Source: Hyphomonadaceae bacterium (GTDB lineage: Bacteria; Pseudomonadota; Alphaproteobacteria; Caulobacterales; Hyphomonadaceae). From it: 43,870 bases of DNA. The notes beneath the pieces are model-generated. The model was not told where the DNA came from. It saw only the letters and a list, made by a program, of their open reading frames with translations, and made no database searches. Each line of letters starts with the position of its first letter. Position 1 is the stretch's first letter. Of the stretch, positions 7,111 to 27,875 are shown in pieces. The stretch covers positions 1-43,870 of the forward strand of contig JALEGE010000107.1 of the NCBI GenBank assembly GCA_022760335.1, given 5' to 3'. A program made the translations under genes and the position numbers.

Positions 7111-7151
7111 GTCACTCGCTTGACCAAGACCGGAGATGCACACTCCGGGAT

Positions 7152-8090: not shown

Positions 8091-8145
8091 GGTAGATACC
8101 TGTTCTGATCGTGTTGTAAGATTGGCCTCATGGGCGCGGATCGCG

Positions 8146-10066: not shown

Positions 10067-11125
10067 TCATGCTGAGCGGCAATCGAGCACGATCTTTCCT
10101 GTCACCTCTCGCGCCTCCAGCATGGCATGCGCACGCGCGGCATCTGCCAATGGCAGGGTGGCGCCAATAGCAGGCCGTATGCTGCCGGAGCTGATCGCTT
10201 CCATAACGTCTGCCAGGTCTTCGCGATACGCGCCGGGGCGATTGTTGCGCCACAGGGTCACATTATATCCAACGACACCATTGCTTTGACGCGTGAGGCG
10301 GAAGGAGTCGATCTTGCTGCCGAGCAAGAGCCCTAAAATTGCAGACACACGAATTCGTCCCCCACGCGTGGTATCATAAGCACCAAACACCACTGCCGTC
10401 CCCCCCGGCTGCAGCGCCGGGAGACTTACTTTCCGCAAATGAGATCCAGCAATATGATCAAATACGGCGACGGCCCCACCTGCCGTGATCTCTTTGATAC
10501 GATCTGCAAGACCGGCACGCTCACGATAATCGAGCGGCTCCGCACCCGCGGCGCGAATTGCGTCATGTTTTCCAGGCGAAGCAAGTCCGATTGCGCGCAC
10601 ACCGCGAGCGCGGGCAAGATCGAGCAGAATTGAGCCAACGCCACCGCCTGCGCCGCACACAACGATCCACTCTCCTGGATCAGCCGACGCAACTCGCGTC
10701 AGCATTTGCCAGGCCGTCACGCCATTCAGCACACCGGCGAGCAGCAATGCGCCATCTGTTTCTTCCGGCACCCGGACAAGCCAGTCTGCCTGAACATTGG
10801 CCGCCGTCGCGTAAGATCCGGTGACCGTGATACCTGCCACGCGGTCTCCCACCTGCAGCCCATCAACACCAGGACCAAGCGCGGCAACGCGCCCGACAAG
10901 ATCATATCCTGGCACAACGGGCAGTTTGACCCCTGCATAGAGGCCATTGCGCATCACAATGTCCGCATAGGCGACACCGGTAAACTCGATATCGACGCGC
11001 ACCTCGCCCTGCCCGGGAGGCGGCAGCTCCACCGTTCTCCCACGCAGGCTTTTTGCAGGTCCACGGCGCGGGGCCATGACCTGGAAGACCTTATCGGTTT
11101 CGGTCTGACCGTAGCTGTCAGGCAA
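10067..11125 (-). CDS. Zinc-less MDR-family NAD(P)H:quinone/enone oxidoreductase
   Basis: This 352-residue medium-chain dehydrogenase/reductase has a GroES-like N-terminal domain (about 30-130: GEVRVDIEFTGVAYADIVMRNGLY). The Rossmann fold follows (about 150-310: VCGAGGGVGSILLDLARARG). The cysteine and histidine zinc ligands of alcohol dehydrogenases are absent, so it resembles quinone oxidoreductases and enoyl/enone reductases. The frame starts with TTG at 11125, preceded by a very strong GGAGGGAGGGG, and overlaps the end of the epimerase gene by 8 bases. An ATG at 11077 is the alternative. As last gene of the monooxygenase operon it probably reduces an unsaturated ketone or interconverts alcohol and ketone. 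Confidence 0.85.
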   Translation of the reverse strand: MPDSYGQTETDKVFQVMAPRRGPAKSLRGRTVELPPPGQGEVRVDIEFTGVAYADIVMRNGLYAGVKLPVVPGYDLVGRVAALGPGVDGLQVGDRVAGITVTGSYATAANVQADWLVRVPEETDGALLLAGVLNGVTAWQMLTRVASADPGEWIVVCGAGGGVGSILLDLARARGVRAIGLASPGKHDAIRAAGAEPLDYRERAGLADRIKEITAGGAVAVFDHIAGSHLRKVSLPALQPGGTAVVFGAYDTTRGGRIRVSAILGLLLGSKIDSFRLTRQSNGVVGYNVTLWRNNRPGAYREDLADVMEAISSGSIRPAIGATLPLADAARAHAMLEAREVTGKIVLDCRSA

Positions 11126-12146
11126 TCACCCCTCCCTCCAGCAGACCTGCTGACCTGAACCAGTTCACCTCATCGCGAATGGTGTCTTCGACCGGGCGGA
11201 AGGTCAGGCCCAGTTCGGTCTCGCTCTTTGTGTGGTTGAAGCGGGTGCGGAAGGATTCTTTCCGCATATTGTTCACCGCATCCATGCTCAGAAGGACCTG
11301 CTGTCCGAAAACACGCGCGCGCACCTCATTGAAGAAGGCAATCGTGTAGAGCGCGAAATAGGGCACAAGGGTTTTTGGCGCTGGCTTGCCAGTGACTTCC
11401 TGATAGCGCTGCGACAGCTCAACCATGGTCATGCCACGCCCGGCGGCGAGATACCGCTCGCCGCGCCGGCCCTGCCGAGCGGCTGCAAGCTGCGCTATGG
11501 CCACATCACGCGCATCTACGTAGGAAAATGTGGCGGCAGGCAGACCCGGCAAACTTCCATTCATGTAATCGAGTGTGAACTGGCCCGCTGAAGTCGGCCC
11601 CAGATCACCCGGCCCATGCATCCAACCTGGCAGGACCATGCAAACATGAGAGTCCGGATGCGCCGCAAGGTGCTTGAAGACCTCCTCATCGGCCAAAATC
11701 TTTGAGCGATAGTAATCATCGCCCTCATCCGGCTTGCGGGTCATGGTCTCATCAATCAGATCACCATCCTCACCATTCAGAACGGCAATCGAACTGGTGT
11801 GGACAATGCGCCGGATCCCACTTTCATGGGCAGCGGCCAGCAGGTCGCGCGTACCGTCGACATTGACCCTTTTCAGTTTTTCCCAATGTTTGCCGCCCTT
11901 GTAGCTGTCGCGGAAATACGCAGCCGTATGGAACACGATATCGCATCCCTCCAGCGCGGGCGAAAAGCCTGCGACATCTTCCATGTCGCCAATCACGACC
12001 TCGAGATTGTCCAGCCCAGCGAGCTGCTGCTCGGCCTTGGCCTGCGAGCGCGCCAGGGCCTTCACGCGATAGCCCTCCTGAAGAAGGAGCCGGACAAGAT
12101 TGTTACCAAGAAGACCGGTCGCACCGGTAACGAAAGCTGTTTGCAA
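11118..12146 (-). CDS. NAD-dependent epimerase/dehydratase-like SDR (dihydroflavonol-4-reductase type)
   Basis: This is a 342-residue extended short-chain dehydrogenase. The Rossmann motif TGATGLLG lies within the first 15 residues. The catalytic YxxxK is YYRSK near residue 145, with the serine-rich strand VHTSSIAVL before it. Relatives reduce ketones or epimerise sugars, and in catabolic operons usually act on hydroxy/keto steps of alicyclic or steroid-like compounds. I chose the TTG at 12146 because GGAG stands seven bases upstream and it begins directly at the first beta strand. The open frame reaches another TTG at 12230 without such a site. It lies 108 bases downstream of the monooxygenase gene. 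Confidence 0.82.
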   Translation of the reverse strand: MQTAFVTGATGLLGNNLVRLLLQEGYRVKALARSQAKAEQQLAGLDNLEVVIGDMEDVAGFSPALEGCDIVFHTAAYFRDSYKGGKHWEKLKRVNVDGTRDLLAAAHESGIRRIVHTSSIAVLNGEDGDLIDETMTRKPDEGDDYYRSKILADEEVFKHLAAHPDSHVCMVLPGWMHGPGDLGPTSAGQFTLDYMNGSLPGLPAATFSYVDARDVAIAQLAAARQGRRGERYLAAGRGMTMVELSQRYQEVTGKPAPKTLVPYFALYTIAFFNEVRARVFGQQVLLSMDAVNNMRKESFRTRFNHTKSETELGLTFRPVEDTIRDEVNWFRSAGLLEGGVIA

Positions 12147-12254
12147 CAGATTTCTCCATGAATTACTGCGAGGGAGATAGGCAACACACGCGCGCGCCAA
12201 CACCCACGCTTCCGCGAAGTTAATTTGCAAAAACAGAGTTCCGTTCTTGTCCGA

Positions 12255-14081
12255 TCAGGACACGGACGCAGCATGCAATATCAGCCCATCCAGGGAACCA
12301 CTCTCCTGCAACTCATGCAACATGGCGATAAAGTCCGCAGATCTGCCGGGATAATACTCATTGCGAACTGAACTCGGATCGACCTGGCCCTCAGCATTGT
12401 AATAACTGGGGGTACACTCTTGGTCGAACTTTGTCTTCAACCCTGCAAAGGACAGCATATGGTGAACCCAGGCATCCTCGGCATCCTTGCTCGGCTCAAG
12501 CGCGCCAAGCCCGCGGGCCCTGCATGCACTGACCAGAAAGGCAATATGCTTTGCTGCCTCATTGGACATATGGGTGAAGTTCGGCGTGTTTGGCGCCTGC
12601 GGCATGCCCATCAGGAACAAGTTTGGGAAGTCGTGCGACATCAGGCCGTGTAATGTCGACACGCCTCGTTCGCGCTGCCATTTCTGCGAAAGTGTTTCGC
12701 CTGACCGCCCTGTTATGGAAAAGCCGAAACGCTGTTCGAAACTGGTGCGCACCTCAAAGCCCGTCGCCAGGATGAGGCAATCAAGCGGGTAAAGTGTGTC
12801 GCCAACAATCGCACCCTCTTCCACGAATTCAGCAACACCGCGCCCGTCTGTATCGACCAAATGGACATTTGACCGATTATAGGCGTCCAGATACGCGTCG
12901 TGGAATGTTGGGCGCTTGCACCAGACATTGTAATAAGGCTTCAGCGCCCCGGCTGTCTGCGGGTCTTTCACCGTCGCATCGATACGCGCGCGCAGCTCTT
13001 CCATCTTTTGCAGGTCTGCCAACTGGCGCTGACGCTTTTCCTCATCGGTCATGTTCGCCAGTTCTGCGCCAACGTCTGCAAACAGCACCGTCCATCCATC
13101 ATTGACGAGGTCCAGTTCGACCCGAGATGCCGCGCCGCATACAATGTTGTTGAAATTGTCCATCCGCTCTTGCTGCCAACCCGGCTTGAGCGTGGCCGCC
13201 CAGTCTGGATCAGTCGACTGGTTCCCGCGCACGCCAACCGATGGCGGCGTGCGCTGGAATACAAACAGATCGCCAGCATAGTCCGCAACGCTCGGCACAA
13301 CCTGAATGGCCGTCGCGCCCGTCCCAACGATCCCCACACGCTTTCCAGCGAGACCGGTCTGTCCGCCGTTTTCATCACCACCGGTATAGGCATAATCCCA
13401 GCGGCTGGTGTGGAAGACACGCCCCTTGAATGTCTCCAATCCCGACACGCCCGGCAATTGTGGCCTGGTAAGCGGGCCAGTCGATACGCAAAGGAATTGC
13501 GCCATCAACTCGTCGCCATGGGACGTTGTGATATGCCACCTTTGGGTTGTTTCCACCCATTCCGCACGCTCCACACCAGCCTGGAACAGGGCGTCTCGTT
13601 CAAGATCGAAAACCTCAGCAATCCGTTTCGCATGCGCGCGGATCTCTGGCCCCGGCGCATATTTCATGCTCGGCAAATAGCCGGTCTCTTCCAGCAGGGG
13701 CATGTAGATATAGGCCTCGGTATCGCAGGACGCGCCGGGATACCGGTTCCAGTACCAGGCCCCCCCGAAGCCAGCGGCGCGATCAATGATCCGAATCTTT
13801 TCAACACCGGCCTGGCGCAAGCGCGCGCCGGCCAGCAAGCCACCAAATCCCGCACCGATAATGGCCACATCACACGCCTCGCGAACAGGCGCCCTTGAGG
13901 GCGGTTCAGGTGCGTGAGGATCATCGAGGATGTAGGCAAGTTCGCCATCGGCCGCGCGGAACTGGGCCGCGCCCTCACTGTGGAGGCGCTTTTCGCGCTC
14001 CAGTCGATACCGCTCAAGCAGTGCACTGGCGTTTGTCGCCGCGCCTGAATCTTCCCCTACCCGGTTTGAACCGTCGGCCAT
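12255..14081 (-). CDS. Type I Baeyer-Villiger monooxygenase
   Basis: This 608-residue flavoprotein uses FAD, NADPH and O2 to insert oxygen next to a ketone, giving an ester or lactone. The FAD motif VAIIGAGFGGLLAGARLR is near residue 72. The Baeyer-Villiger fingerprint FKGRVFHTSRWDY is near 220, fitting FxGxxxHTxxW followed by an acidic residue. The NADPH motif VGIVGTGATAIQVVP follows near 248. An N-terminal extension of about 65 residues matches the larger cyclic-ketone and steroid-type enzymes. A good GGGAG ribosome-binding site precedes the ATG. With the epimerase and MDR genes it forms a leftward operon, divergent from a LysR gene. The ketone substrate cannot be told from the sequence. 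Confidence 0.93.
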   Translation of the reverse strand: MADGSNRVGEDSGAATNASALLERYRLEREKRLHSEGAAQFRAADGELAYILDDPHAPEPPSRAPVREACDVAIIGAGFGGLLAGARLRQAGVEKIRIIDRAAGFGGAWYWNRYPGASCDTEAYIYMPLLEETGYLPSMKYAPGPEIRAHAKRIAEVFDLERDALFQAGVERAEWVETTQRWHITTSHGDELMAQFLCVSTGPLTRPQLPGVSGLETFKGRVFHTSRWDYAYTGGDENGGQTGLAGKRVGIVGTGATAIQVVPSVADYAGDLFVFQRTPPSVGVRGNQSTDPDWAATLKPGWQQERMDNFNNIVCGAASRVELDLVNDGWTVLFADVGAELANMTDEEKRQRQLADLQKMEELRARIDATVKDPQTAGALKPYYNVWCKRPTFHDAYLDAYNRSNVHLVDTDGRGVAEFVEEGAIVGDTLYPLDCLILATGFEVRTSFEQRFGFSITGRSGETLSQKWQRERGVSTLHGLMSHDFPNLFLMGMPQAPNTPNFTHMSNEAAKHIAFLVSACRARGLGALEPSKDAEDAWVHHMLSFAGLKTKFDQECTPSYYNAEGQVDPSSVRNEYYPGRSADFIAMLHELQESGSLDGLILHAASVS

Positions 14082-15142: not shown

Positions 15143-16591
15143 TCACCGCGACTGTGTCAGGATGCTTTTTGTCTGCGTGTAGTGATCAAGGACAAGCAGG
15201 CCATTCTCGCGTCCAAGTCCAGATTGCTTGTAACCACCGAAAGGCATGGCGATCGGATATTCATTATAGGTGTTTATCCAGCAAATGCCCGCCTGCAATT
15301 GGTGCGCGACCCGTTCTGCTCGTCCATTGTCACCTGTATAGATGCCAGCCGCGAGTCCCAGCTCGGTTGCGTTGGCGCGCCCGATCACCTCCTCTTCGGT
15401 GTCAAACATCATGACGCAGGCAACCGGCCCAAAGATCTCTTCTCTTGCAATCCGCATCGCTTCGCGAACATCTGTGAATATTGTCGGCCGCACATAAGTG
15501 CCGTCTGCAGCCATGCTGACCGAATTCGGCCCGCCGCTCACGCAGGTTGCACCTTCGCTGAGGCCAAGCTCTATATAGGTCCGCACACTTTCGGCATGGT
15601 GTTCTGAGACCAGCGGCCCGATCTCGGTTTCGGGATCGAGCGGATCGCCCATTTTCATGCTTTCCGCACGCGCGATGAACAGTTCCAGGAAGCGATCAAA
15701 TGCCGACCGCTGCACATAAATGCGGGTGCAATTGCTGCAAATCTGGCCGCTCGAATAGAAGTTTCCGGCAGCGGCGCCCTCTACCGCGGCTTCAAGATCT
15801 GCATCGTCGAACACAATCAGCGGTGACTTGCCGCCAAGCTCAAGCGAGACATGTTTGAGCTGTGCAGTGGCGGCCGCGTGGATTTTCTTTCCCGTTGCGA
15901 CAGATCCGGTCAGTGAAACCTTCGCAACACCCGGGTGCTCGACAAGCCACTGGCCCACCTTGCCATCGCCCTGGACCACATTGAACAAGCCTGCAGGCGC
16001 GCCCGCCTCGGCAATAATCTCCGCCAGTTTCAAGGCACTTAGCGGTGTGGTTTCCGACGGTTTGAAGATCATGGCATTGCCGCACAGCAAAGCCGGCGCG
16101 GCCTTCCAGCCCGCGATTTGTATGGGATAGTTCCACGCGCCGATGCCGACACAAACGCCAAGAGGTTCCTTCAGAACCTTGATGGTTCCAGTGTCGGTCT
16201 GCTCGGTAGATCCTTGAAGGGCAGTGGGTGAGAGGGCGCTGTAATATTCAAAGCACTCGGCGGCAGAGGCCGGATCCGATACCAAAGTCTCGCTGATGGG
16301 CTTGCCTGTATCGAATGTTTCAAGGCGCGCCAGTTCATCATTCCTGTCCCGTAGGATTTCCGCCACACGCCGCAGGACCTGTTGCCGTTCGGACAATGAG
16401 GTCGTGCGCCATATGGCCTGCGCATTCTGCGCGGAATGGATCGCGTGATCCAATATGGCTGGCGTTGCGACATGCAGACGGGCAATCACGCGCCCATCGG
16501 CAGGAAAGCAGCTCTGGAAGGGCGTGCCCTCGCGGTCGTCTCTATATGCGCCCTCAACGAAGTGAGAGCCCTCGGGTTGGTGCGGGTACAT
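15143..16591 (-). CDS. betB: Betaine-aldehyde dehydrogenase (ALDH superfamily)
   Basis: This NAD(P)-dependent enzyme oxidises betaine aldehyde to glycine betaine. At 482 residues it has the family length. The glutamate base lies in SLELGGKSP near residue 250, and the catalytic cysteine in SSGQICSNCTRIYV near 283. The N-terminal nucleotide-site strand is GIGAWNYPIQIAGWK, as in BetB/ALDH9 enzymes. I took the ATG at 16591 (MYPHQPEGSHF), which has AAGG nine bases upstream; the longer frame overlaps the cupin gene. It closes the leftward operon, 22 bases after the cupin. A related amino-aldehyde substrate is possible, but the divergent betA-like gene and downstream betaine pathway support the BetB role. 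Confidence 0.85.
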   Translation of the reverse strand: MYPHQPEGSHFVEGAYRDDREGTPFQSCFPADGRVIARLHVATPAILDHAIHSAQNAQAIWRTTSLSERQQVLRRVAEILRDRNDELARLETFDTGKPISETLVSDPASAAECFEYYSALSPTALQGSTEQTDTGTIKVLKEPLGVCVGIGAWNYPIQIAGWKAAPALLCGNAMIFKPSETTPLSALKLAEIIAEAGAPAGLFNVVQGDGKVGQWLVEHPGVAKVSLTGSVATGKKIHAAATAQLKHVSLELGGKSPLIVFDDADLEAAVEGAAAGNFYSSGQICSNCTRIYVQRSAFDRFLELFIARAESMKMGDPLDPETEIGPLVSEHHAESVRTYIELGLSEGATCVSGGPNSVSMAADGTYVRPTIFTDVREAMRIAREEIFGPVACVMMFDTEEEVIGRANATELGLAAGIYTGDNGRAERVAHQLQAGICWINTYNEYPIAMPFGGYKQSGLGRENGLLVLDHYTQTKSILTQSR

Positions 16592-16613: not shown

Positions 16614-17447
16614 CTATGCTGCGGAGTCCACATCCAGAATGCTGGCAAAATTCCCGGCAGCAGAGACAACCAGTCTTGCGCGGTCCGCGCTCAGATTGAA
16701 AACCTGCCATTCAATGCCTGCGGGAATGTGGAACGCATCTTCGACATTCATCTCCTGCCAGATATTGCTCTGCTTGACGCGGACATGAACGCGGCCAAAT
16801 TCGACATAGAGAGAGGTTGGCGCAGACCATGACAACGGGTCACTTCTTTGACCGGCAGAAAGCTCACAGACACCGACGGACAGACTGTCAGTGCTCGCAA
16901 GTGCACGAAGAAGGATAATGTCGGTCTTTCCGAGAAGAATGTTTGCAGCGCTGCGCTCATTTATGACCGCCATATCCTGATAGGCACTGGCGGTTTCGCG
17001 CGGGAAATCAAGCAGCTTTTGCGGATCAAATCCGTGCGGCGCTTGCGGAATTTCACGAGTGTTCGCCCCATCCTGTGAACCGGTGATGGCAATCATTTCA
17101 AGAACGCGCAGTTCGCTGTCGGAAAAATTGTAGCCGAAATGCCATTGCGGGCCGCGCATGAGGATCATGTCACCAGGATTGGCGACGCGCACTTCTCCCG
17201 TCTCAGGATTCTGGATCGTATACTGGCCTTCCAGCACATAGAGGCCTTCAATCGCATTGTAGATCGGGCGGTTTTCTTCAGATGCGCCATAGCGCGCGCC
17301 GGGCGGCATGGTGATCACCAGCGACACCAGTTCCGGATTGAACGAGTAGTAGAGATCGTTGATGTACCCCGCCTTATCGTCTCCCCAAAGAACGGGAATG
17401 ATGTTCTTGCGGGCAACGAAGGCAGGGGAATTTTGGGCGTCAGTCAT
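16614..17447 (-). CDS. Bicupin protein 1 of unknown function
   Basis: This 277-residue protein has two cupin beta-barrels (about residues 55-130 and 185-265). The first holds a cupin motif 2, GDMILMRGPQWHFGYNFSD, with one histidine, but its motif 1 (GLYVLEGQYTIQNPETGEV) lacks the usual HxH. The second barrel has tryptophan where motif 2 normally has histidine (HIPAGIEWQVFNLS). Metal binding is therefore doubtful, at least in domain 2. The MTDAQNSP start at 17447 has AAGGA upstream and overlaps the TetR stop by 8 bases. A paralogue lies at 18904-19746. A sensor, isomerase, lyase or chaperone-like role for a quaternary amine intermediate is possible; I do not assign one. Confidence 0.75.
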   Translation of the reverse strand: MTDAQNSPAFVARKNIIPVLWGDDKAGYINDLYYSFNPELVSLVITMPPGARYGASEENRPIYNAIEGLYVLEGQYTIQNPETGEVRVANPGDMILMRGPQWHFGYNFSDSELRVLEMIAITGSQDGANTREIPQAPHGFDPQKLLDFPRETASAYQDMAVINERSAANILLGKTDIILLRALASTDSLSVGVCELSAGQRSDPLSWSAPTSLYVEFGRVHVRVKQSNIWQEMNVEDAFHIPAGIEWQVFNLSADRARLVVSAAGNFASILDVDSAA

Positions 17448-18063
17448 GGTCGTCCTTTCCGAGTCCGGCGAGTTGTAATTCGATGGCTTCCTGGCAGGCC
17501 TTGATCGCCTTTTTGCGCGTGATGGCTTTCTCAATGGAAAGCTGGATCCAGAAGCCATCAATCAATGCGATCAGCGTGTATCCAGCGAGTACAGGATCAG
17601 CCACGCGGGCGCCGGCCTCATTGGCCTGCTGGTAAAGCGATGCCACTTCCTGGCGGTAGGTCGTGTAGAGCACTTCATGGTTCTTGCGGATATCGTCACA
17701 CGTGGCCGCAGCATGCCAGAAGGCCAGAAAGGCCTTCGCATTGATCTCAGTGAGCACCGAAGACGAGAAGATGGTCGCCGGCATCAGATACAGGCGCTCA
17801 CGAACCGTCAGGCTTGGGTTTGCCAGCTTTCTGACAACGATATCGGAAATGCGATTGCAGAGTCGCTTATGCGCCTGAACCAACAATGTCTCGCGATCAT
17901 TGAAATAGTGCCCGATCAAGCCACGCGACGTCCCGGCCGCATCGGCAATGGTGCGCACCGAAGCCCCCTTGAGACCTTCACGCGCAACGCACTCTATCGC
18001 GCCATTGATCAGCGCATTCAGACGATACTCATTAATCTCGGCATGCGTGTTGGGTCGGGCCAT
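17440..18063 (-). CDS. BetI-like TetR-family repressor
   Basis: This 207-residue regulator resembles BetI, the choline-responsive repressor of bet genes. The helix-turn-helix contains TIADAAGTSRGLIGHYFNDRE. The C-terminal domain has the BetI-type marks AFLAFWHAAATC and LIALIDGFWIQLS. I chose the MARPNTHAE start at 18063, with GGAG nine bases upstream, over an upstream ATG. It lies inside the leftward operon between the SDR and cupin genes. The paired TTGAC-GTCAA palindromes in the divergent promoter (19814-19827 and 19943-19956) are the obvious operators. Sequence similarity to BetI is clear, but the ligand could be another quaternary amine. Confidence 0.85.
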   Translation of the reverse strand: MARPNTHAEINEYRLNALINGAIECVAREGLKGASVRTIADAAGTSRGLIGHYFNDRETLLVQAHKRLCNRISDIVVRKLANPSLTVRERLYLMPATIFSSSVLTEINAKAFLAFWHAAATCDDIRKNHEVLYTTYRQEVASLYQQANEAGARVADPVLAGYTLIALIDGFWIQLSIEKAITRKKAIKACQEAIELQLAGLGKDDHD

Positions 18064-18101
18064 CGTGTCAAACTCCGCGTGTAATTGGCAGCGCCAGGAG
18101 G

Positions 18102-18872
18102 CTATTCCAGACACCAGCCTCCATCGACCGGAATAACGTGTCCCGTCACAAAAGATGACGCATCCGAAGCCAGGAAGATTGCCGGGCCGACCAGCTCATC
18201 AGGTTCACCCTTGCGCCGCATAGGCGTGCCCTGAATGACTTGCTCTCGGTATCCGGGGTCATCATAATACGCTTCGGTGCCGCGCATATGGCTGGTCATG
18301 AAGCCCGGGTTGATCGTGTTCACGCGCACACCGCGTGCGGCCCACTCGGTTCCCAAATGGCGCGCAAGGTGATCAACGCCAGCTTTGGCGGCGCCATATG
18401 CCGCGCCCCCCGGAAAGGCCACGATACTGGCCGTGGACGATACAAAGATGATCGATCCCTTGCCCTGTGAAAGCATTTGCCGGCCAGCGATCTGCGCGCA
18501 TGTAAACGCACTGTTCAGATCAATATCGATGACCCGCCGCCATTGATCTTCCGGCACATGCTCAGAGGGTCCGCCCTCACCTATACCGTGAGACACAAGC
18601 AGAATGTCCAGGCGACCATAAGCTTCCACAGTCTTTGCAAACAGTGCTTCGCAGTCTTCTCGCTTCGTCGCCTCGAAGGAAATCCCCATGACCTCGTGTC
18701 CTTCGGAGCGAAGTTCCTCAACCACAACATCAATGTCGCCCTGAGTCCGCCCCGCGATAACAACCTTGGCTCCCGCGCGGGCAAAGCCGGTTGCGATCGC
18801 GCGGCCAAGCCCCCGCCCAGCGCCGGTTACAACGGCGACCTTGTTGACCAGTTCAAATCGATCGAGCGACAT
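18102..18872 (-). CDS. Short-chain dehydrogenase/reductase
   Basis: This classical SDR has 256 residues. The cofactor motif TGAGRGLG is near residue 16, the catalytic serine in VSSTASIVAF near 143, and YGAAK gives the YxxxK near 158. The end, VIPVDGGWCLE, is typical of the family. Real start MSLDRFEL has AGAGG nine bases upstream; the frame's longer start runs into the cupin gene. It follows the second bicupin by 31 bases and precedes the TetR gene by 38, so it is an operon member. It would oxidise an alcohol or reduce a ketone. Together with the bicupins it makes this bet locus larger than the classical betIBA set. Confidence 0.87.
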   Translation of the reverse strand: MSLDRFELVNKVAVVTGAGRGLGRAIATGFARAGAKVVIAGRTQGDIDVVVEELRSEGHEVMGISFEATKREDCEALFAKTVEAYGRLDILLVSHGIGEGGPSEHVPEDQWRRVIDIDLNSAFTCAQIAGRQMLSQGKGSIIFVSSTASIVAFPGGAAYGAAKAGVDHLARHLGTEWAARGVRVNTINPGFMTSHMRGTEAYYDDPGYREQVIQGTPMRRKGEPDELVGPAIFLASDASSFVTGHVIPVDGGWCLE

Positions 18873-18903
18873 TTCATATACCTCTGTTACTTGAAAAAGG
18901 GGG

Positions 18904-19746
18904 TTATGGCGCGGCCGTGAAGCCGGTTGCGATATTGCCAGCCACAGCCAACACAACGGAGCAGCGATCGGCCTTGCCATTGAACAGCTGCCACTCGGTG
19001 TTCGGGGGCAGGGCGAACAGCTCGTCCACCGTCACCTCTGTCCAGACACCGCCATCCGGCACACGGACATGCAAACACCCGGAGGTCACAAAAACCGCCG
19101 CTTCAAAGGGCAGGCGGATCGAATCCGTCCGCTGACCGGGCGCAAGCTCAATCAGAGCCAGCGAGACGCGGTCGTTGCTGGCAAACACATCAAGGCGAAC
19201 TGGGTTTTGCTCGCCGTACAAAACGGCCACAGACTGATCTCGCGCAACAACATCCATGTTGCACGCCCCGCTGTCGCGCGTGCGAGGGAAGTCTTCCAGC
19301 GCAGACGGATCGAACCCTTTCGCAACCTCCGGCCGCACCATATCTGCCGTGCTGTTGTTGAGATCGACAGGCGCGATCGCCTCAAAGATGCGCAACTCAC
19401 GGTCGGAGAAATTGTACCCATAGTGCCATTGAGGACCGCGCAGCAGGATCAGCTCGCCTTCGTCAGCAACCCGAACCTCGCCGGTTTCGGGATTCTGAAT
19501 TGTGTACTGGCCTTCCAGGATGAAAAGCGCCTCATCGGAATCGAAAACGGTGCGGAAGGTATCAGAAGATGTAAAGCGCCCCCCTGGCGCCACGCACGCC
19601 ACAACGATCGCCAGCTCCGGCGTCAGCCGGTAGAAAAGATCATTGGCGAACCCGGCCTGCTCATCTCCCCACAAAAGGGGAGAAACCTCTGATTTCCGGA
19701 TCAGACCGGGCCGTGCCGCCCCCACATTACTATCTTCAGTGTTCAT
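18904..19746 (-). CDS. Bicupin protein 2, paralogue of bicupin 1
   Basis: This 280-residue protein is the first gene of the leftward bet-like operon. It shares long identical stretches with bicupin 1, such as LEGQYTIQNPETGEVRVA, RGPQWHYGYNFSDRELR, and LLWGDEQAGFANDLFY against its VLWGDDKAGYINDLYY. Domain 1 again keeps the single histidine of motif 2 and lacks HxH. Domain 2 again has tryptophan (ALPPNTEWQLFNGK). I chose the ATG at 19746, with GGAAG just upstream. Two paralogues kept in one operon suggest a heteromer or two related substrates. No enzyme family I can name has this exact motif pattern. Confidence 0.75.
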   Translation of the reverse strand: MNTEDSNVGAARPGLIRKSEVSPLLWGDEQAGFANDLFYRLTPELAIVVACVAPGGRFTSSDTFRTVFDSDEALFILEGQYTIQNPETGEVRVADEGELILLRGPQWHYGYNFSDRELRIFEAIAPVDLNNSTADMVRPEVAKGFDPSALEDFPRTRDSGACNMDVVARDQSVAVLYGEQNPVRLDVFASNDRVSLALIELAPGQRTDSIRLPFEAAVFVTSGCLHVRVPDGGVWTEVTVDELFALPPNTEWQLFNGKADRCSVVLAVAGNIATGFTAAP

Positions 19747-19813
19747 TCTTCCATCCCACGCAGCGGGCGCAAGCTGCGCCGAAAATTGCACTGCATTGGA
19801 GGTCACATAATGT

Positions 19814-19827
19814 TTGACAATCGTCAA
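19814..19827. promoter_or_regulatory. Candidate BetI-type operator, left copy
   Basis: TTGACAATCGTCAA is a near-perfect palindrome (one mismatched pair inside) 68 bases before the start of the leftward bicupin operon. An almost identical sequence stands at 19943-19956 on the betA side. The pair is the best candidate binding site for the BetI-like repressor encoded in the operon. Confidence 0.6.
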
Positions 19828-19942
19828 GCAAATATGCGCAAAAAATCTTGCGGCCTCGGCGCCAAGTCAGAGTAACAATATATTTTGTATGATGTTTTTG
19901 AAAAACATGGCTTGGAATGCTTTAGCGCATTCCTCATAAAAC

Positions 19943-19956
19943 TTGACGATCGTCAC
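19943..19956. promoter_or_regulatory. Candidate BetI-type operator, right copy
   Basis: TTGACGATCGTCAC contains the perfect 12-base palindrome TGACGATCGTCA (19944-19955), 55 bases before the betA start. It matches the left copy except at two positions. The first six bases, TTGACG, could also serve as a -35 element for betA, so a bound repressor would block RNA polymerase. Confidence 0.6.
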
Positions 19957-20011
19957 ATATTTTGACATCCGCATTACAGATGATCACCACTATTGAGGCG
20001 AGGAGAGGCAA

Positions 20012-21676
20012 ATGGCAGCTGGGACATCAAGCTCGGGTCGGTTTGATTATGTTGTCGTAGGCGCAGGCTCCGCCGGCGCTACGATTGCGCACCGACTGGC
20101 AGAAGACCCGCACCGCCGCATCCTGTTGCTGGAAGCCGGTCCGCGCGACAACAAGCTGCTTGTGCGCATGCCGGCCGGCGTCGGCGAACTGCATGGCCGG
20201 CGCCTATATGAGTGGGACTATGCGACCGAACCTCAGACGAATCTGAACGGCCGGCGCCTTCCCCAGCCGCGCGGCAAGATCCTTGGCGGCTCATCGTCCA
20301 TCAACGGCATGATCTTCATCCGCGGGCATGCCCTGGATTATGACCGCTGGGAGGCAGAGGGGGCCCACGGATGGTCGTATCAGGACGTTCTTCCCTATTT
20401 CAGGAAACTCGAATCGCACACGGGAAGATTAAGCCCATACCGGGGAACAGACGGACCGGTCGGCACCCTGAAGGGGCCATGCCACAATCCATTATTCGGC
20501 GCCTTTATCCGCGCTGGAGAGCAGGCGGGTTATCCCGTGACCAGCGACGTCAATGGGTATCAGCAGGAAGGCTTTGGCCCCTATGATGCCAATATCAAGG
20601 ATGGATACCGCCACAGCGCATCGCTCGCCTATCTACAGGCGCCACCTGAGAACCTGACAATCGCCACAGAAGCCGATGCCAAATCCCTGATCATCGAAAA
20701 TGGCAGGGCCGTGGGCGTCACTTACACTCAAGCCGGCCAAGAGCGGCAGGCCTATGCCGAAAGTGAAGTTATCGTTTCATCGGGCGCGATTGGCTCTCCC
20801 ATGCTTCTCCTGAGATCCGGGATCGGCCCGGCAGAGGACCTGCACGCGCTTGGCATCCCGGTTGTGGCAGACCTGCCTGGTGTAGGTCAGAACCTGCATG
20901 ATCATCTGGAGATCCAGTTTGATTTCGGCTGCCAACAGCCCATCACCCTCTACCGCGAGTTCCAGCCCCATACCCAGATCATGATTGGCCTGCGCTGGCT
21001 GCTGAACCGAACGGGTCCCTGCGCCCAAAATCATCTGGAGGCTGGCGCCTTCATCAGGAGCCGGCCCGGCATAAGGCACCCCGACATACAATATCATTTC
21101 ATGCCGATGTGCCTGACGGATCCGCGGAAATTCAAGATTACCGAACATGGCTTCCGCGTGCATGTCGGCCCCTTGCGCACCAAGAGCCGCGGCTTTGTGA
21201 AACTGCGCTCTGCCGATCCGGACGCGCGGCCCATTATCGATCCCAATCATATGAGCCATGAGGATGACTGGACCGAAATGCGCGCCTGCTTTGATCATAC
21301 CCGCGAGATTTTCTCGCAGAAGGCGTTTGAGCCCTATATCGGGCGCGAGATCTGGCCTGGCACCAATGTAAGTACGCGCGAAGAGCAGGACGAATATGTC
21401 CGCGCACGCTCTGTCAGCGCGCATCATCTGTGCGGCACCTGCCGGATGGGAAGCGATGAAGAGGCTGTTGTCGACCCGGAATGCCGGGTTCGCGGGATTG
21501 ATGGCCTGCGCGTTGCCGATGCCTCGATCATTCCGAGCATTACGAGTGGAAACCTGCATGCGCCAAGCCTGATGATCGGGGAGAAAGCCGCAGACCATAT
21601 CCGCGGATTTGGCATGGAAGCGCCGCTCCCTCTGCCGCACTACCAGGCTGAGAACTGGCAAACCGCCCAGCGCTGA
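20012..21676 (+). CDS. betA: Choline dehydrogenase-like GMC oxidoreductase
   Basis: This FAD enzyme of 554 residues should oxidise choline to betaine aldehyde, probably feeding electrons to the respiratory chain at the membrane. The FAD motif YVVVGAGSAGATIAHRLAED is at residues 9-28. The GMC signatures GGSSSINGMIFIRGHALDYDR (about 90-110) and SSGAIGSPMLLLRSGIGP (about 253-270) are present. The C-terminal active site has HHLCGTCRMG and SGNLHAPSLMIGEKAAD, close to the E. coli BetA pattern. AGGAGAGG precedes the ATG. It is divergent from the bicupin/SDR/TetR/betB operon and followed after 186 bases by dgcA. Other GMC alcohol dehydrogenases look similar, so choline as substrate is inferred from context. 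Confidence 0.83.
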   Translation: MAAGTSSSGRFDYVVVGAGSAGATIAHRLAEDPHRRILLLEAGPRDNKLLVRMPAGVGELHGRRLYEWDYATEPQTNLNGRRLPQPRGKILGGSSSINGMIFIRGHALDYDRWEAEGAHGWSYQDVLPYFRKLESHTGRLSPYRGTDGPVGTLKGPCHNPLFGAFIRAGEQAGYPVTSDVNGYQQEGFGPYDANIKDGYRHSASLAYLQAPPENLTIATEADAKSLIIENGRAVGVTYTQAGQERQAYAESEVIVSSGAIGSPMLLLRSGIGPAEDLHALGIPVVADLPGVGQNLHDHLEIQFDFGCQQPITLYREFQPHTQIMIGLRWLLNRTGPCAQNHLEAGAFIRSRPGIRHPDIQYHFMPMCLTDPRKFKITEHGFRVHVGPLRTKSRGFVKLRSADPDARPIIDPNHMSHEDDWTEMRACFDHTREIFSQKAFEPYIGREIWPGTNVSTREEQDEYVRARSVSAHHLCGTCRMGSDEEAVVDPECRVRGIDGLRVADASIIPSITSGNLHAPSLMIGEKAADHIRGFGMEAPLPLPHYQAENWQTAQR

Positions 21677-21862: not shown

Positions 21863-23905
21863 ATGGGTTCACCCTACGAAGCATTGCTGCGGCCGCTGAC
21901 GATCAAGGGCCTGACGATCCGCAACAGGATCATGAGTACGTCGCACGCCCCTTCTTATGGCGACGCAGGCCGGCCAAAAGACAGGTATCAGCTCTACCAT
22001 GCCGAGAAGGCAAAAGGGGGCATCGGCCTGACCATGTTTGGCGGCTCGTCATCTGTTTCCCCCGACAGCCCGGCCTCTCCCTGGAACCAGATCTCCGTCG
22101 CTGATGACGGTGTGATCCCCTACTTCCAGGAATTTGCCGCGCGCGTACACGGCCACGGCGCCGCCCTGATGATCCAGCTGACGCATATGGGCCGGCGCAC
22201 GCGTTGGGACACGGAGAACTGGCTGCCAACCGTGTCCCCATCCCCCGTGAGAGAGCCCGCAAGCCGCTCCATCCCAAAACAGCTGGAGCGCTGGGACATG
22301 GAGCGCATCATCGCAGACTATGTTTCTGCCGTGCGCCGTTGCCGCGAAGGCGGTCTTGATGGCTGCGAGATTTCCGCCGCCCATGGCCACTTGCTGGACC
22401 AGTTCTGGAGTCCATCCGTCAATCGCCGGACAGATGAATATGGCGGCAGCCTGGAAAATCGCATGCGGTTTGGCATGGAGGTCTTCGAGGCGATCCGCCG
22501 GGATGTCGGCGAGGATTATATCGTCGGCATTCGCATGTCAGCCGACGAGCTGATTGATGACGGCCTTTCCTTTGAGGACTGCCTGACCATCGCCAAAACA
22601 CTGTCACAAGCCGGGCTTGTGGATTTCGTAGACCTGCTCGGCGGGCAGGCGCGCGATCATATGGCCCACGCGATCATCTTGCCGAACATGGCCTTTCCGG
22701 TTGCCCCCTTCCTTCCCCTGGTGAGCGCATTCCGGGCCGAGCTTGATGTTCCTGTGTTCCATGCCCAGCGGATCATGGATCTGGCAACGGCCAGCAGGGC
22801 GGTCGCCGATGGGCATGTCGACATGGTCGCCATGACGCGCGCGCATATTGCCGATCCCCATATCGTCAACAAGCTGATGGCCGACAAGGCCGATGATATC
22901 CGGCAATGCGTGGGTGCGGGCTACTGCATCGACCGGATCTATGCCGGCAAGGATGCGCTGTGCATCCAGAACGCCTCGACGGGCCGGGAGGCGACACTCC
23001 CACATGATGTCGCCAGGGCAGACACACATTTGAAGACCGTCGTCATTGGCGCGGGTCCTGCCGGGCTTGAGGCCGCGCGCGTTCTGGCCCTGCGCGGCCA
23101 CGAGGTTGTGCTGATCGAGCGGGAGGCTCTGGCGGGCGGACAGTTGCTTACCGCGTCAAAGGCAACCTGGCGCGAAGCGCTCACCGGCATCACGCGCTGG
23201 CTCGTGCAACAGGTACAGAAGCTGGGTGTGGACCTGCGTCTCGGCACGGAGGCGACCGTCGAGACCATTCTCGCCGAGGCGCCCGATATCGTTGTGGTTG
23301 CAACGGGCGGATATCCTTCCGATGGATGGATAAAGGGGGCCGAACTCGCCCAGAATACCTGGGAGATCCTCAATGGCAGCGTGGAGCCTGCTGAGACCGT
23401 CCTGATCTATGACGGGCTTGGTCAGCACCAGGCCGTCTCCTGCGCTGAAGTGATGGCCAAACGGGGCGCGAAAGTGGAGCTTGTCACGCTGGACCGCGCT
23501 GTGGGGGAGGAAGTTGGCGGCACCAATTTTCCGGTGCATCTGCGCGAGCTCTATCGGCTCGATGTGATCATGACGCCAAACCTCACGCTCACCGAGATCT
23601 ATGGAGAAGGCAATAAGCGCGTTGCCGTGCTGCGAAACGATTACACGCTTGAGGAAGAAGAGCGCCTGGTTGACCAGATCGTCCTCGAATTTGGCACCCT
23701 GCCAAATGACGCGCTCTATTTCGCGCTGCGCGAGCAATCGGCCAACAAAGGCAAGCTCGATCTTGAGGCTCTAATTGATGGCCGGCCTCAGATGGCGTCC
23801 AGCACGGAAGGCCAGTTTGCGCTGTATCGCATCGGGGATGCGGTCGCCGGGCGCAATGTCCATGCGGCAATCTATGACGCCAAACGCCTTTGCCGGGTCC
23901 TTTGA
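21863..23905 (+). CDS. dgcA: Dimethylglycine dehydrogenase subunit A (DgcA type)
   Basis: This 680-residue flavoprotein demethylates N,N-dimethylglycine to sarcosine. Residues 1-340 form an old-yellow-enzyme TIM barrel for FMN (AALMIQLTHMGRRT; SAAHGHLLDQFWSPSVNRRTDEYGG). A cysteine-rich link (CVGAGYC and a later C near residues 352-372) resembles the 4Fe-4S site of trimethylamine dehydrogenase. The rest is an FAD/NAD-type domain (VVIGAGPAGLEAARVLALRGHEVVLIERE near 393). The architecture matches DgcA of Pseudomonas and Sinorhizobium. It heads the operon dgcA-dgcB-etfA-etfB, and dgcB begins three bases after its stop. Electrons probably pass to DgcB and the dedicated EtfAB. Confidence 0.92.
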   Translation: MGSPYEALLRPLTIKGLTIRNRIMSTSHAPSYGDAGRPKDRYQLYHAEKAKGGIGLTMFGGSSSVSPDSPASPWNQISVADDGVIPYFQEFAARVHGHGAALMIQLTHMGRRTRWDTENWLPTVSPSPVREPASRSIPKQLERWDMERIIADYVSAVRRCREGGLDGCEISAAHGHLLDQFWSPSVNRRTDEYGGSLENRMRFGMEVFEAIRRDVGEDYIVGIRMSADELIDDGLSFEDCLTIAKTLSQAGLVDFVDLLGGQARDHMAHAIILPNMAFPVAPFLPLVSAFRAELDVPVFHAQRIMDLATASRAVADGHVDMVAMTRAHIADPHIVNKLMADKADDIRQCVGAGYCIDRIYAGKDALCIQNASTGREATLPHDVARADTHLKTVVIGAGPAGLEAARVLALRGHEVVLIEREALAGGQLLTASKATWREALTGITRWLVQQVQKLGVDLRLGTEATVETILAEAPDIVVVATGGYPSDGWIKGAELAQNTWEILNGSVEPAETVLIYDGLGQHQAVSCAEVMAKRGAKVELVTLDRAVGEEVGGTNFPVHLRELYRLDVIMTPNLTLTEIYGEGNKRVAVLRNDYTLEEEERLVDQIVLEFGTLPNDALYFALREQSANKGKLDLEALIDGRPQMASSTEGQFALYRIGDAVAGRNVHAAIYDAKRLCRVL

Positions 23906-23908
23906 CAT

Positions 23909-25801
23909 ATGGTCGGCCTCATCCTGTCGGTCGGCATTCTGGCGATCCTGTCTGGCGGCCTTCTTGTCGCGGCACTGAGAGTGAGATTGTGGGCGAAGGG
24001 GCGCCCAGCCAATATAGATTGGTGGACTGGCATCGCAGCATTGCCGCGCAGATATCTGGTCGATGTCCATGATGTGGTGGCCAGGACACCGCTGAATGCC
24101 CGGTTTCACATGTTTGCGGCCGGTGGTTTTCTGCTTTCGCTCCCGCTTCTGCTGCTGACCGGTATTCCCGGTTTCAGCAGTCCCTGGCTCTGGTCCCTCG
24201 CCGCGCTCAGCTTCATCGCCGCGATCCTGGGCGCGCTGCTCGATATCTATCGCAGGGCAGTTCTGCGGCCGGGCGAACTCTCAAGGGGCGGGTTTGCGCG
24301 TTTTCCGTTTTTGATCCTCATATATGCCCTGGCGATGCTGATCATTGCCAGCGTCCACGTCCTTGGCGGGCGTCTGCCATTTGAAGCGCTTGCGCCACTC
24401 ATCGCGGTCGGCCTTGGCGCGGCGGCCCTTCTTATCTTCGGCCTTGGACGAGGGCCTTTGCGGCATGCTTTCGCGGGCGCAGTCCACCTTGTTGTCCACC
24501 CGCGCCCGGCACGATTTGCGCCCGCGCCGGCAGAGAGGCGCGGCATTGCGAGCGGGTTGGAACCGCTTGATCTCGATCAGCCGAAACTCGGCGTGGAAAC
24601 CCCTTCTGACTTTGCCTGGAACCGGCTGGTCGGCTTTGATGCCTGCGTGCAGTGTGGGCGGTGTGAAAGTGTCTGCCCGGCGCATGATGCCGGCTTGCCG
24701 CTCAATCCCAAGGCGCTGGTGCAGGACCTTGTCCGGAGCCTGGATGCGCAAAGTCCGGACTATTTCGGAACACCGCACACAGGCATCGCGTCCAGCCGGC
24801 CTGGCCGCCCCGACCAGCGCGTTATTGGGGAGGGGGCCACACTTCACCCGGATACGCTCTGGGCGTGCACAACCTGCCGGGCCTGCGTCGAGGCCTGCCC
24901 GATGATGATCGAACATGTCGATGCCATTGTGGATCTGCGGCGTTTCCAGACCCTCGACAAAGGCGCCACGCCCGGCAAGGGGCCAGAACTTCTCGAAGAG
25001 CTGCAGGCAACCGACAATACGCGCGGGCTCGCCGCTGTCCGCCGCGTCGATTGGGCGAGCGACCTGTCCCTGAAGGTGCTGGATGAGAGCAATGCGTGCG
25101 ATATTCTGCTCTGGCTGGGTGATGCGGCCTTTGAGATGCGGGGCCAGCGCACACTTCGGGCGCTCGTTCATCTTCTGGACAAGGCTGGACTGGATATCGC
25201 CATCCTGGGCGAGGCCGAGAAAGATTGCGGCGATCAGGCCCGGCGTCTTGGCGACGAAGCCGGTTTTCAAAGACTGGCCCATGACAATATTGAACTGCTC
25301 GAAAACCGCAGGTTCGGGAAAATCGTAACGGCAGATCCGCACGCGCTTCATGTTCTGAGAAATGAGTATCCGGCCTTTGGCGGCCACTATGAGGTCGTCC
25401 ACCATACGGCCCTCTTGCTGGAGTTGGTCGAAGACGGCCGTTTGCAGCTCCCGGACCTTGAGGGCGAACAGGTCACCTATCATGATCCGTGCTATCTGGG
25501 ACGCTATAATGGCGAGTATGCCGCGCCGCGAAAGCTGCTCGAAATTGCCGGCGCGCAGCTGGTCGAAATGGAGCGCTCGGGACCGCGGTCCCATTGTTGC
25601 GGCGGCGGGGGCGGCGCACCGGTGACCGATATCTCCGGCGAGGCGCGTATCCCCGACAGGCGCATGCAGCAGGCCGTGGCGACAGGGGCAGGCTGCGTTG
25701 CGGTCGCCTGTCCGGGCTGCACACAAATGCTGGAAGGCACAGCGCAGCCGCGGCCCACCGTGCTGGACATCGCAGAGCTGCTTTCAGGCGCCAAACCGTG
25801 A
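23909..25801 (+). CDS. dgcB: Dimethylglycine catabolism Fe-S membrane protein (DgcB type)
   Basis: This 630-residue inner-membrane iron-sulfur protein is the electron-transfer partner in dimethylglycine oxidation. About six hydrophobic helices fill residues 1-200. Two ferredoxin-type 4Fe-4S motifs follow: CVQCGRCESVCP near 246 and CTTCRACVEACP near 320. The C-terminal half has CCG domains (HDPCYLGRYNGEY near 525, SHCCGGGGG near 562) like heterodisulfide-reductase and glycolate-oxidase subunits. It starts three bases after dgcA and ends in a GTGA overlap with etfA. A long antisense frame over it is a shadow. It probably passes electrons to the quinone pool. Confidence 0.92.
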   Translation: MVGLILSVGILAILSGGLLVAALRVRLWAKGRPANIDWWTGIAALPRRYLVDVHDVVARTPLNARFHMFAAGGFLLSLPLLLLTGIPGFSSPWLWSLAALSFIAAILGALLDIYRRAVLRPGELSRGGFARFPFLILIYALAMLIIASVHVLGGRLPFEALAPLIAVGLGAAALLIFGLGRGPLRHAFAGAVHLVVHPRPARFAPAPAERRGIASGLEPLDLDQPKLGVETPSDFAWNRLVGFDACVQCGRCESVCPAHDAGLPLNPKALVQDLVRSLDAQSPDYFGTPHTGIASSRPGRPDQRVIGEGATLHPDTLWACTTCRACVEACPMMIEHVDAIVDLRRFQTLDKGATPGKGPELLEELQATDNTRGLAAVRRVDWASDLSLKVLDESNACDILLWLGDAAFEMRGQRTLRALVHLLDKAGLDIAILGEAEKDCGDQARRLGDEAGFQRLAHDNIELLENRRFGKIVTADPHALHVLRNEYPAFGGHYEVVHHTALLLELVEDGRLQLPDLEGEQVTYHDPCYLGRYNGEYAAPRKLLEIAGAQLVEMERSGPRSHCCGGGGGAPVTDISGEARIPDRRMQQAVATGAGCVAVACPGCTQMLEGTAQPRPTVLDIAELLSGAKP

Positions 25802-26982
25802 GCGTGCGCAGGGATCCGCGCGGCGAGCGAGACGCCCGCAAGATCGAAAGCCGCTCCGGCTTGCCCCGTTTCACGATTGCGCCGGTAGAGGCTGGCACCT
25901 CACGGCGGCGCATCGATCCGCGCGCTGCGCGTGATGCGCGCAGGGTGAGCAGCCATGGCCGGCCGCGCTTCGGCCTGGTAACCGCCCTCAACCCCGGCAA
26001 GATCGCCGATCCGGTCTCCTCTGAGGCGCGTGCCAGGCCAATCCGAATTGTCGAGACGCCGGACTTTCTTGTCCTTGCCGTGCCGGACCGGAGTTTTGGC
26101 GCGTCAGACGCCGACACCCAAGCCGTCATCAATGCAGCCCACAGACTATGCGCGGGATCAAACGGCGCCGTGTGCGTGCTGAGCGAACCGGGCGATCCGG
26201 ACTATGGCGCGGTCGGTGCAGACAGGGTCTTGCAGCTTCCCCTAGAAAGGACGACGGCGGCGTCAATCTCCCGGCTGATTGACCAGTTCCCCATTCGCCA
26301 TGTCGTCTTTGCTGAATCGCCTGAGGGCGCTGACCTTGCAAGGCAAACCGCTGCCCGAACCGGGACTCGGTTGTTTGCGGCAGCCGAACGGATATCGGAG
26401 GGACAAGCGAGCCGGCGGTGCGATGGCGGAAAGATGGAATTGACGGCAGAGTTACCGCTGGTCGTGTCCATCTTGCCGCACATCTTCAGGGGTGAAGCGA
26501 AAGAGGCGGGTGAGGCCCGGCCGATCACTGTTGACCCCGCATTGCAAGGCGCTGAGACGCCTTTGGCAAGGCCGCGACTGCTTGAGGCAGACCCATCGGC
26601 ACTTTCCCTGTCAGAGGCCGAATTCATTCTCAGCGCGGGCGACGGGGTAACGGACTGGGAGGGCTTCTCAACGCTTGGTGATCTGCTGGGCGCGGCCCTG
26701 GGCGGCAGCCGCAATGTCTGTGATGCCGGCCACCTTCCGCGAGACAGGCAAATAGGCGCTTCAGGGACCATTGTGACGGCAAAATGCTATCTGGCACTCG
26801 GCATATCCGGCGCCCCTCAGCATTTGCAGGGCATCAGCGATGTTCAACATGTCGTCGCGGTGAACACAGATCTTCACAGCGCCATGATCAAGAGAGCCGA
26901 TCTGTCCATTATTGCCGATGCGCAAGAGGTGATCCCTGCACTCATTGACCGCCTCAAACGCGAGGAGGGACGCGATGATTAA
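25798..26982 (+). CDS. etfA: Electron-transfer flavoprotein alpha subunit, dimethylglycine-type
   Basis: This 394-residue protein is the FAD-carrying alpha subunit of an ETF serving DgcA/DgcB. The C-terminal FAD domain is clear: SAGDGVTD near 282, then QIGASGTIVTAKCYLALGISGAPQHL and the closing ADLSIIADAQEVIPALI. It is about 80 residues longer than housekeeping EtfA. The extra arginine-rich N-terminus begins SVRRDPRGERDARKIES, a feature I also associate with the dgcB-linked EtfA of Pseudomonas. The start is a GTG at 25798 overlapping the dgcB stop. It overlaps etfB by 8 bases. Confidence 0.88.
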   Translation: MSVRRDPRGERDARKIESRSGLPRFTIAPVEAGTSRRRIDPRAARDARRVSSHGRPRFGLVTALNPGKIADPVSSEARARPIRIVETPDFLVLAVPDRSFGASDADTQAVINAAHRLCAGSNGAVCVLSEPGDPDYGAVGADRVLQLPLERTTAASISRLIDQFPIRHVVFAESPEGADLARQTAARTGTRLFAAAERISEGQASRRCDGGKMELTAELPLVVSILPHIFRGEAKEAGEARPITVDPALQGAETPLARPRLLEADPSALSLSEAEFILSAGDGVTDWEGFSTLGDLLGAALGGSRNVCDAGHLPRDRQIGASGTIVTAKCYLALGISGAPQHLQGISDVQHVVAVNTDLHSAMIKRADLSIIADAQEVIPALIDRLKREEGRDD

Positions 26983-27745
26983 GGCTCTCATTCTCTTGTC
27001 TGCGGGCCGTCATCCCGTATCCGGGCGTGCGCGATGTGCAAGGCTTGATGCCCTGGCCCTGGAGATGGCCCTGTCTCTCGCCCCACCGGCTCAGGTTATG
27101 GCTGTGCATGCTGGCGATCCCGGCAATCCGGCCTTGCGCGGCTATCTTGGGATGGGACTGACGCATTTGACCGTCCTCGACCTCCCGGAAGGTCATGACC
27201 CTGTTCCATCCCTTATCGAGCATGTGCGCGCGGAGGCTCCCGATATCGTATTTGCGGGTAACCAGGCTGAAATCGGGGAAGGCAGCGGCACTGTGCCTTA
27301 TCTCATCGCAGAAGCGACGGGTGCGAGTGTGGCGCGCGATGTGATTGCTGTTGAGCTCCTCAAGGACGGCTTGCACGTGCGCCAGGCCTTGCCGAAAGGA
27401 TTGCGGCAGGAGACCGCGCGCGCCTTTCCTGCCATTCTCTGTGTCGCACCACAGGCGCCACCGGCGCGCCAGCAGAGCTTCGCACGCGCACGCGAGGGAG
27501 AAATCGTCACAAGAGAAACTGCTCAGACGCCAGAGCGCTTTTTGCCCGGCTGCACGCTGCGCCCATACAAGCCAAGGTCCGCGCTCAATATTCCCTCCGG
27601 GTCCGCCATGGATCGGCTGCGGGCCGCCACGGAAGTTCGCGCTGGCGAAGAACGTGTTCTGATAGACCCGCAGCCTGACAAAGCCGCTGAAGAAATCATT
27701 CAATATCTCACCGCAAAAGGCGTACTTCGAAAGCCGCGGCAATAA
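26975..27745 (+). CDS. etfB: Electron-transfer flavoprotein beta subunit, dimethylglycine-type
   Basis: This is a 256-residue ETF beta subunit. The nucleotide loop GNQAEIGEGSGTVPYLIAEATG lies near residues 89-110, followed by the recognition-loop region LPKGLRQETARAFPAILCV. GAGGAGGG before the ATG at 26975 is a strong ribosome-binding site, and the gene overlaps etfA by 8 bases. The C-terminus (KAAEEIIQYLTAKGVL) is the usual terminal helix. It closes the dgcAB-etfAB operon, 130 bases before gbcA. Its role is to accept electrons from dimethylglycine oxidation and pass them to the respiratory chain. Confidence 0.9.
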   Translation: MIKALILLSAGRHPVSGRARCARLDALALEMALSLAPPAQVMAVHAGDPGNPALRGYLGMGLTHLTVLDLPEGHDPVPSLIEHVRAEAPDIVFAGNQAEIGEGSGTVPYLIAEATGASVARDVIAVELLKDGLHVRQALPKGLRQETARAFPAILCVAPQAPPARQQSFARAREGEIVTRETAQTPERFLPGCTLRPYKPRSALNIPSGSAMDRLRAATEVRAGEERVLIDPQPDKAAEEIIQYLTAKGVLRKPRQ

Positions 27746-27801
27746 CCAGCGGGCTCTGCGCGCCATGACAATCTGCGCGTGCCGTTTTTGAGACTGGAAA
27801 T

Positions 27802-27829
27802 GTCGCAAATACGAATGCGTACATCACAA
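27802..27829 (+). promoter_or_regulatory. Candidate GbdR operator before gbcA
   Basis: GTCGCAA at 27802-27808 is followed 21 bases on by ATCACAA (27823-27829), which matches it at five of seven positions. The wider word ATGTCGCAAATA (27800-27811) occurs identically on the minus strand before soxB. It ends about 46 bases before the preferred gbcA start. Confidence 0.6.
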
Positions 27830-27875
27830 CTCAAAGGCAAACTTTCACTCCAGACCCGGCTGAATGGAGGTGCAT

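Follow-up and report, generated by a model that had tools for sequence, protein, structure and literature searches.

The two bicupins encoded in the window, a stretch of 43,870 nucleotides that corresponds to contig C32 of a 3.5 Mb Hyphomonadaceae genome, probably constitute an undescribed enzyme that assists in the breakdown of alcohols or quaternary amines. In the reading that we prefer, to which we assign a probability of about 0.4, the pair forms an auxiliary enzyme that probably works without a metal. This enzyme would belong to an oxidation module under TetR control, composed of a GMC dehydrogenase, an SDR and bicupins, and in this genome the module is joined to betB and to an island for the degradation of choline and betaine. 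The bicupins may act specifically on quaternary amines.

Organization of the bicupin operon

The open reading frames of both bicupins are real coding genes. They belong to a minus-strand operon of five genes running from 19746 to 15143, opposite a divergently transcribed GMC dehydrogenase gene. G451 and G724 in the following list are the two other genomes with close bicupins described below.

18904-19746, minus strand: bicupin-2, first gene of the operon, 280 aa; Pfam Cupin_2; two-barrel AF2 model with pLDDT 76; 45% identity to the G451 homologue
18102-18872, minus strand: SDR family dehydrogenase, 256 aa; adh_short_C2; 58% and 55% identity to the SDRs near the bicupins of G451 and G724
17440-18063, minus strand: TetR-family regulator with BetI-type C-terminal domain; TetR_N and TetR_C_6; 40% identity to the TetR adjoining the G724 bicupin
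16614-17447, minus strand: bicupin-1, 277 aa; Pfam Cupin_2; two-barrel AF2 model with pLDDT 78; 48% identity to the G451 homologue
15143-16591, minus strand: betaine-aldehyde-dehydrogenase-like ALDH (betB); NF009725 695 bits; 53-57% identity to the BetBs of three betIBA operons
20012-21676, plus strand: BetA-like GMC dehydrogenase, divergent; PRK02106 742 bits (cut-off 605)

In the order bicupin-2, SDR, TetR, bicupin-1 and betB the genes are separated by 31, 38, -8 and 22 bp, the negative value being the overlap of the bicupin-1 and TetR genes. Gene order and packing agree with the original prediction of one operon with an SDR, a BetI-like repressor and betB, opposite betA, but the GMC and TetR proteins are not clear orthologues of BetA and BetI. 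The GMC protein scored 671 bits with TIGR01810, under the cut-off of 732, and in a tree of only 11 rows it grouped with the GMC protein of G451 (support 91/95), whereas the BetA clade (98/97) excludes it. Classed by score and tree it is not a canonical BetA, although it may still act on choline. The rest of the genome contains no BetA over the cut-off, the next best score being 622 bits. The TetR protein fell under both BetI cut-offs (TIGR03384, 95.5 bits compared with 201.3; PRK00767, 98 compared with 118). BetB exceeded the cut-off of NF009725 (593 bits) but not that of TIGR01804 (636 bits compared with 669).

The betIBA operons used for comparison, from Duffyella (annotated) and from Paracoccus and Shinella (our own gene calls), share with the window a BetB-type ALDH, a BetA-like GMC and a TetR with BetI-type C-terminus. 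The window differs in its additional bicupin pair and SDR, in the divergent orientation and phylogenetic position of the GMC gene, and in the low BetI scores of its TetR. None of the three operons harbors bicupin or SDR genes, in line with the earlier statement that classical bet operons have no such genes.

Metal-binding motifs of the bicupins

Bicupin-1 and bicupin-2 share about 41-43% identity. With Cupin_2 they scored 40.4 and 34.2 bits, respectively (cut-off 27.2), each in two stretches, and single-chain structure prediction gave two beta-barrels for each protein. Both thus belong to the two-barrel Cupin_2 superfamily, as originally proposed. The AF2 models were built on four sequences and are weakest around the motif-1 loop of barrel 1, where residues 56-63 of bicupin-1 have a pLDDT below 50.

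In the window pair, barrel 1 has GARYGASEENRPIYNAIEGLYVLEG and GGRFTSSDTFRTVFDSDEALFILEG as its motif 1; HxH is absent and the glutamate is retained. Motif 2 of this barrel keeps its WH (W102-H103). In barrel 2, a tryptophan occupies the position of the motif histidine (GIEWQVFN and NTEWQLFN), and motif 1 is also devoid of histidine, so that HxH is missing in both barrels. The alignment therefore bears out the depleted metal sites described before, with no HxH and a single motif-2 histidine in barrel 1 and tryptophan for histidine in barrel 2. Judged by sequence, neither bicupin has the combination of HxH...E in motif 1 and H in motif 2 that characterizes at least one barrel of classical metal-binding cupins.

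The W-H pair of barrel 1 is invariant among the 14 aligned family members (14/14), and none of these harbors HxH in barrel 1 (0/14), which indicates that the loss of this motif is an old event. Glu67 is present in four close members and replaced by arginine in three distant ones; His103 occurs in all 14. Among the aligned members, tryptophan at the barrel-2 position is restricted to the window pair, and the position is occupied by histidine in two close homologues and by tyrosine in some distant ones. Since the window pair forms one group in the family tree (support 86/84; long branches), the simplest reading is that the barrel-2 histidine was lost before a lineage-specific duplication gave rise to the pair.

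Relatives of the bicupins

No specific NCBIfam model exceeded its cut-off for either bicupin. The proposal of an undescribed enzyme or sensor was upheld in this respect, as this search placed the pair in no characterized family with a known unrelated substrate. A single-sequence search of solved structures returned nothing significant, and a search with the family profile gave generic cupin matches only (best 3e-7, RemF). MncA, oxalate decarboxylase, quercetinase, BacB and AerE share the two-barrel cupin fold with Z values of 20-22, but show only 10-16% identity and none of them stands out. The fold search thus matched generic bicupins with no prominent candidate and allowed no assignment of function. 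(S)-ureidoglycine aminohydrolase (TIGR03214; PDB 1rc6 and 4e2q) is likewise a bicupin of similar size (Z about 20), and its profile weakly matches the C-terminal half of bicupin-1. This candidate was rejected, as the match reached 14.9 bits compared with 200 required, and bicupin-2 had no listed match. A Pfam scan of the bicupins found no DNA-binding domain. Titles and abstract openings of the literature on cupins with choline, betaine, carnitine or GMC described no such module. Within the libraries searched, the window bicupins are thus without characterized relative.

Distant bicupins of Shinella, Ensifer and the genomes G734, G725 and G944 belong to the same family, with an LWGD or LWGE start and the invariant WH of barrel 1, but share only 23-29% identity with the window bicupins. 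Several of them are encoded in sugar-type operons with an ABC transporter, a Gfo/Idh oxidoreductase, a ROK kinase and a TetR or GntR regulator. The adjoining regulator is a TetR in Shinella and a GntR-UTRA protein in G734 and G725. Because distant members occupy several settings, many of them sugar-type operons, the family extends beyond amine metabolism and is not confined to quaternary amines.

Recurrence of the module

The other 104 genomes of the same family contained no bicupin match. Besides the window's own match, 299 genomes of the same order yielded one weak partial match only, and a phylum sample of 397 genomes yielded a distantly related bicupin and, again, a single match that was weak and partial. 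A contig scan of species genomes with bicupin-1 alone as query gave no match. With the family alignment, the scan of 84,980 species genomes, restricted by its two peptide patterns, matched only loci L047 and L048, which belong to G451, a Baikal-deep Alphaproteobacteria MAG, and G724, a Rhodospirillaceae MAG, respectively. Close bicupins were thus located in three genomes in all among those sampled, including that of the window.

Both relatives also harbor the SDR and the divergent GMC gene. Identities to the window genes in G451 and G724 are 58% and 55% for the SDR, 48% and 35% for the bicupin, and 55% and 51% for the GMC protein. The SDRs beside the bicupins are the best matches to the window SDR in their genomes, the next reaching 48%. 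In G724, genes for a BetI-like TetR (40% identity), the bicupin, the SDR and a PhyH-type oxygenase form one tight run. G451 has the SDR, bicupin and GMC genes with no TetR nearby; its SDR and bicupin genes are not one transcript because a gene on the opposite strand intervenes. In both genomes, betB is absent among the called neighbours of the module. The recurring unit is therefore SDR, bicupin and divergent GMC, accompanied by a BetI-like TetR in G724 and by betB in neither relative. Of the cupin-SDR-betIB neighbourhood for which a search for conservation had been suggested, the cupin-SDR part recurs together with the GMC gene, but betB does not and the TetR does so in G724 only.

The contig of G451 also encodes a trimethylamine N-oxide demethylase (L031:4862-7189; NF053776 1212 bits, cut-off 1100), located 3.3 kb from the GMC gene with unrelated genes in between.

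Palindromes in the divergent promoter

The starts of the bicupin-2 and GMC genes are separated by a divergent promoter of 265 bp (19747-20011), which contains two palindromic boxes.

19814-19827, unstranded: palindromic box 1, TTGACAATCGTCAA, 14 bp; putative TetR operator
19943-19956, unstranded: palindromic box 2, TTGACGATCGTCAC, 14 bp; putative TetR operator

A comparable pair of palindromes occurred in none of 2,000 promoter regions simulated with a Markov model, and no further exact match to the joint consensus of both boxes was found in the 3.5 Mb genome. The equivalent gap of G724 (88 bp) harbors a perfect palindrome of 28 bp; none of 5,000 simulations reached even 24 bp. The paired palindromes, together with the G724 palindrome in the corresponding position, suggest that the operon and the divergent GMC gene are controlled jointly. 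The window TetR would be the protein that binds both boxes.

The choline/betaine island

A co-directional block of dgc, etf and gbc genes begins 186 bp after the GMC gene and is followed by genes on the opposite strand.

21863-30238, plus strand: dgcA-like, dgcB-like, etf alpha and beta, gbcA-like and gbcB-like genes for betaine and dimethylglycine demethylation; etf, GbcA and GbcB models all under curated cut-offs
30263-38014, minus strand: genes for serine dehydratase, SHMT and sarcosine oxidase; the former two assigned by Pfam, soxB by TIGR01373 (705 bits, over the cut-off)

The names dgcA and dgcB rest on domain type and position, with no specific model matched, and the gene at 33467-36442 was tentatively called soxA by size, place and GCV_T similarity. 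The GbcA-like Rieske protein (27864-29153) scored 417 bits with NF058607, compared with a cut-off of 670, and contains a CxxC pair (CYHC at 206-209, C206-Y-H-C209). A paper on carnitine monooxygenase (PMC10952381) describes this pair for some of the Rieske enzymes of Group V, the quaternary-ammonium group. Two GbdR-like regulator genes lie side by side and converge at 38116-40130; their products scored 172 and 337 bits (cut-off 480). The presence of the CxxC Rieske, GbcB-like, SoxB and GbdR-like genes indicates a quaternary-amine setting, and the annotation supports choline/betaine catabolism well as the surroundings of the module.

Possible function of the bicupins

In the proposed pathway, the TetR would bind the palindromic boxes between the bicupin-2 and GMC genes and thereby control both transcripts. 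The GMC enzyme would oxidize choline, or another primary alcohol closely resembling it, to the aldehyde, which the BetB-type ALDH would convert to the acid, and the SDR would oxidize a further hydroxyl. The bicupins, as two paralogues that may assemble together, would isomerize, tautomerize or hydrolyze the carbonyl compound resulting from the GMC or SDR step, relying on W102-H103, the invariant pair of barrel 1, and not on a three-histidine metal site. The joint recurrence of the SDR, bicupin and GMC genes, the invariant W-H, the palindromes, the island genes and the trimethylamine N-oxide demethylase gene of G451 speak for this reading. The sugar-type surroundings of distant bicupins, the lack of betB beside the module in both relatives, the small number of genomes with close bicupins and the separate SDR and bicupin transcripts of G451 speak against it. 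A narrower version, in which a heteromeric metal-free bicupin, the SDR and the BetA-like dehydrogenase together convert a choline analogue carrying a hydroxyl group and glycine betaine passes into demethylation, would make this a new quaternary-amine enzyme, but we consider it unlikely.

The bicupins had been put forward as an undescribed enzyme or sensor of quaternary-amine metabolism. The island setting and the lack of an assigned family agree with this, whereas specificity for amines is reduced to a possibility by the sugar-type operons of the family, and the sensor alternative was weakened. Bicupins that bind a ligand and, together with the TetR (distantly with GntR or TetR elsewhere), tune the catabolic genes would fit the loss of metal ligands, the 8-bp overlap of the bicupin-1 and TetR genes, and the regulators that adjoin several distant bicupins. 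These regulators are, however, from different families, as in ordinary catabolic operons, and the bicupins carry no DNA-binding domain of their own. An enzyme is favored over a sensor because G451 has no TetR gene nearby but has the SDR, bicupin and GMC genes, and the sensing role is considered improbable.

It is similarly doubtful that the pair acts as oxygenases or lyases whose metal is bound by a reduced, non-classical set of ligands, such as Glu67 and His103 of barrel 1 and others. The conservation of Glu67 in the four close members and of His103 throughout the family would fit such a site, and metal bicupins (MncA, quercetinase, oxalate decarboxylase) are among the top fold matches, but a common cupin fold is no proof of metal use. 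Moreover, HxH of barrel 1 is missing family-wide, Glu67 is exchanged for arginine in three distant members, and barrel 2 of the window pair has tryptophan for histidine and a histidine-free motif 1. A module for an unrelated alcohol or sugar-like substrate that lies near the choline island by chance would be in keeping with the position of the GMC protein outside the BetA clade and with the sugar-type operons of distant bicupins. This explanation has a low probability, too, given that the GMC gene lies only 186 bp upstream of the co-directional dgc/gbc block, that the bicupin operon ends in a betB passing NF009725 and that no other BetA over the cut-off is encoded in the genome.

If confirmed, the preferred reading, an auxiliary enzyme in an oxidation module, would extend the turnover of choline and methylated amines by a step so far unassigned and by an uncharacterized family of bicupins, and would show that BetA/BetB-like pairs can occur in modules besides betIBA. 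It would also provide a functional handle on the rhizobial sugar-operon bicupins that are annotated merely as 'cupin domain-containing protein'.

Other genes of the window

The region 5280-8976 encodes an amidohydrolase, a TauE/SafE permease, a cyclase-family protein and an acetoacetate-decarboxylase-family protein (8146-8976). A carnitine route via the SDR and the latter gene was considered and rejected, as no beta-keto-acid cleavage enzyme was present among the annotated genes. Genes for a zinc-type alcohol dehydrogenase, an NAD-dependent epimerase/reductase-like protein and a Baeyer-Villiger-type monooxygenase (NF045818 680 bits, cut-off 1100) at 10067-14081, adjoined by a LysR regulator at 14213, resemble a separate degradation cluster. 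At the other end of the window, a second TetR with BetI-type C-terminus (42738-43379) adjoins a TonB-dependent receptor (40410-42683), and the inverted repeat GTAACAGTTGTTATAACACAAATGTTAC lies between the starts of these two genes.
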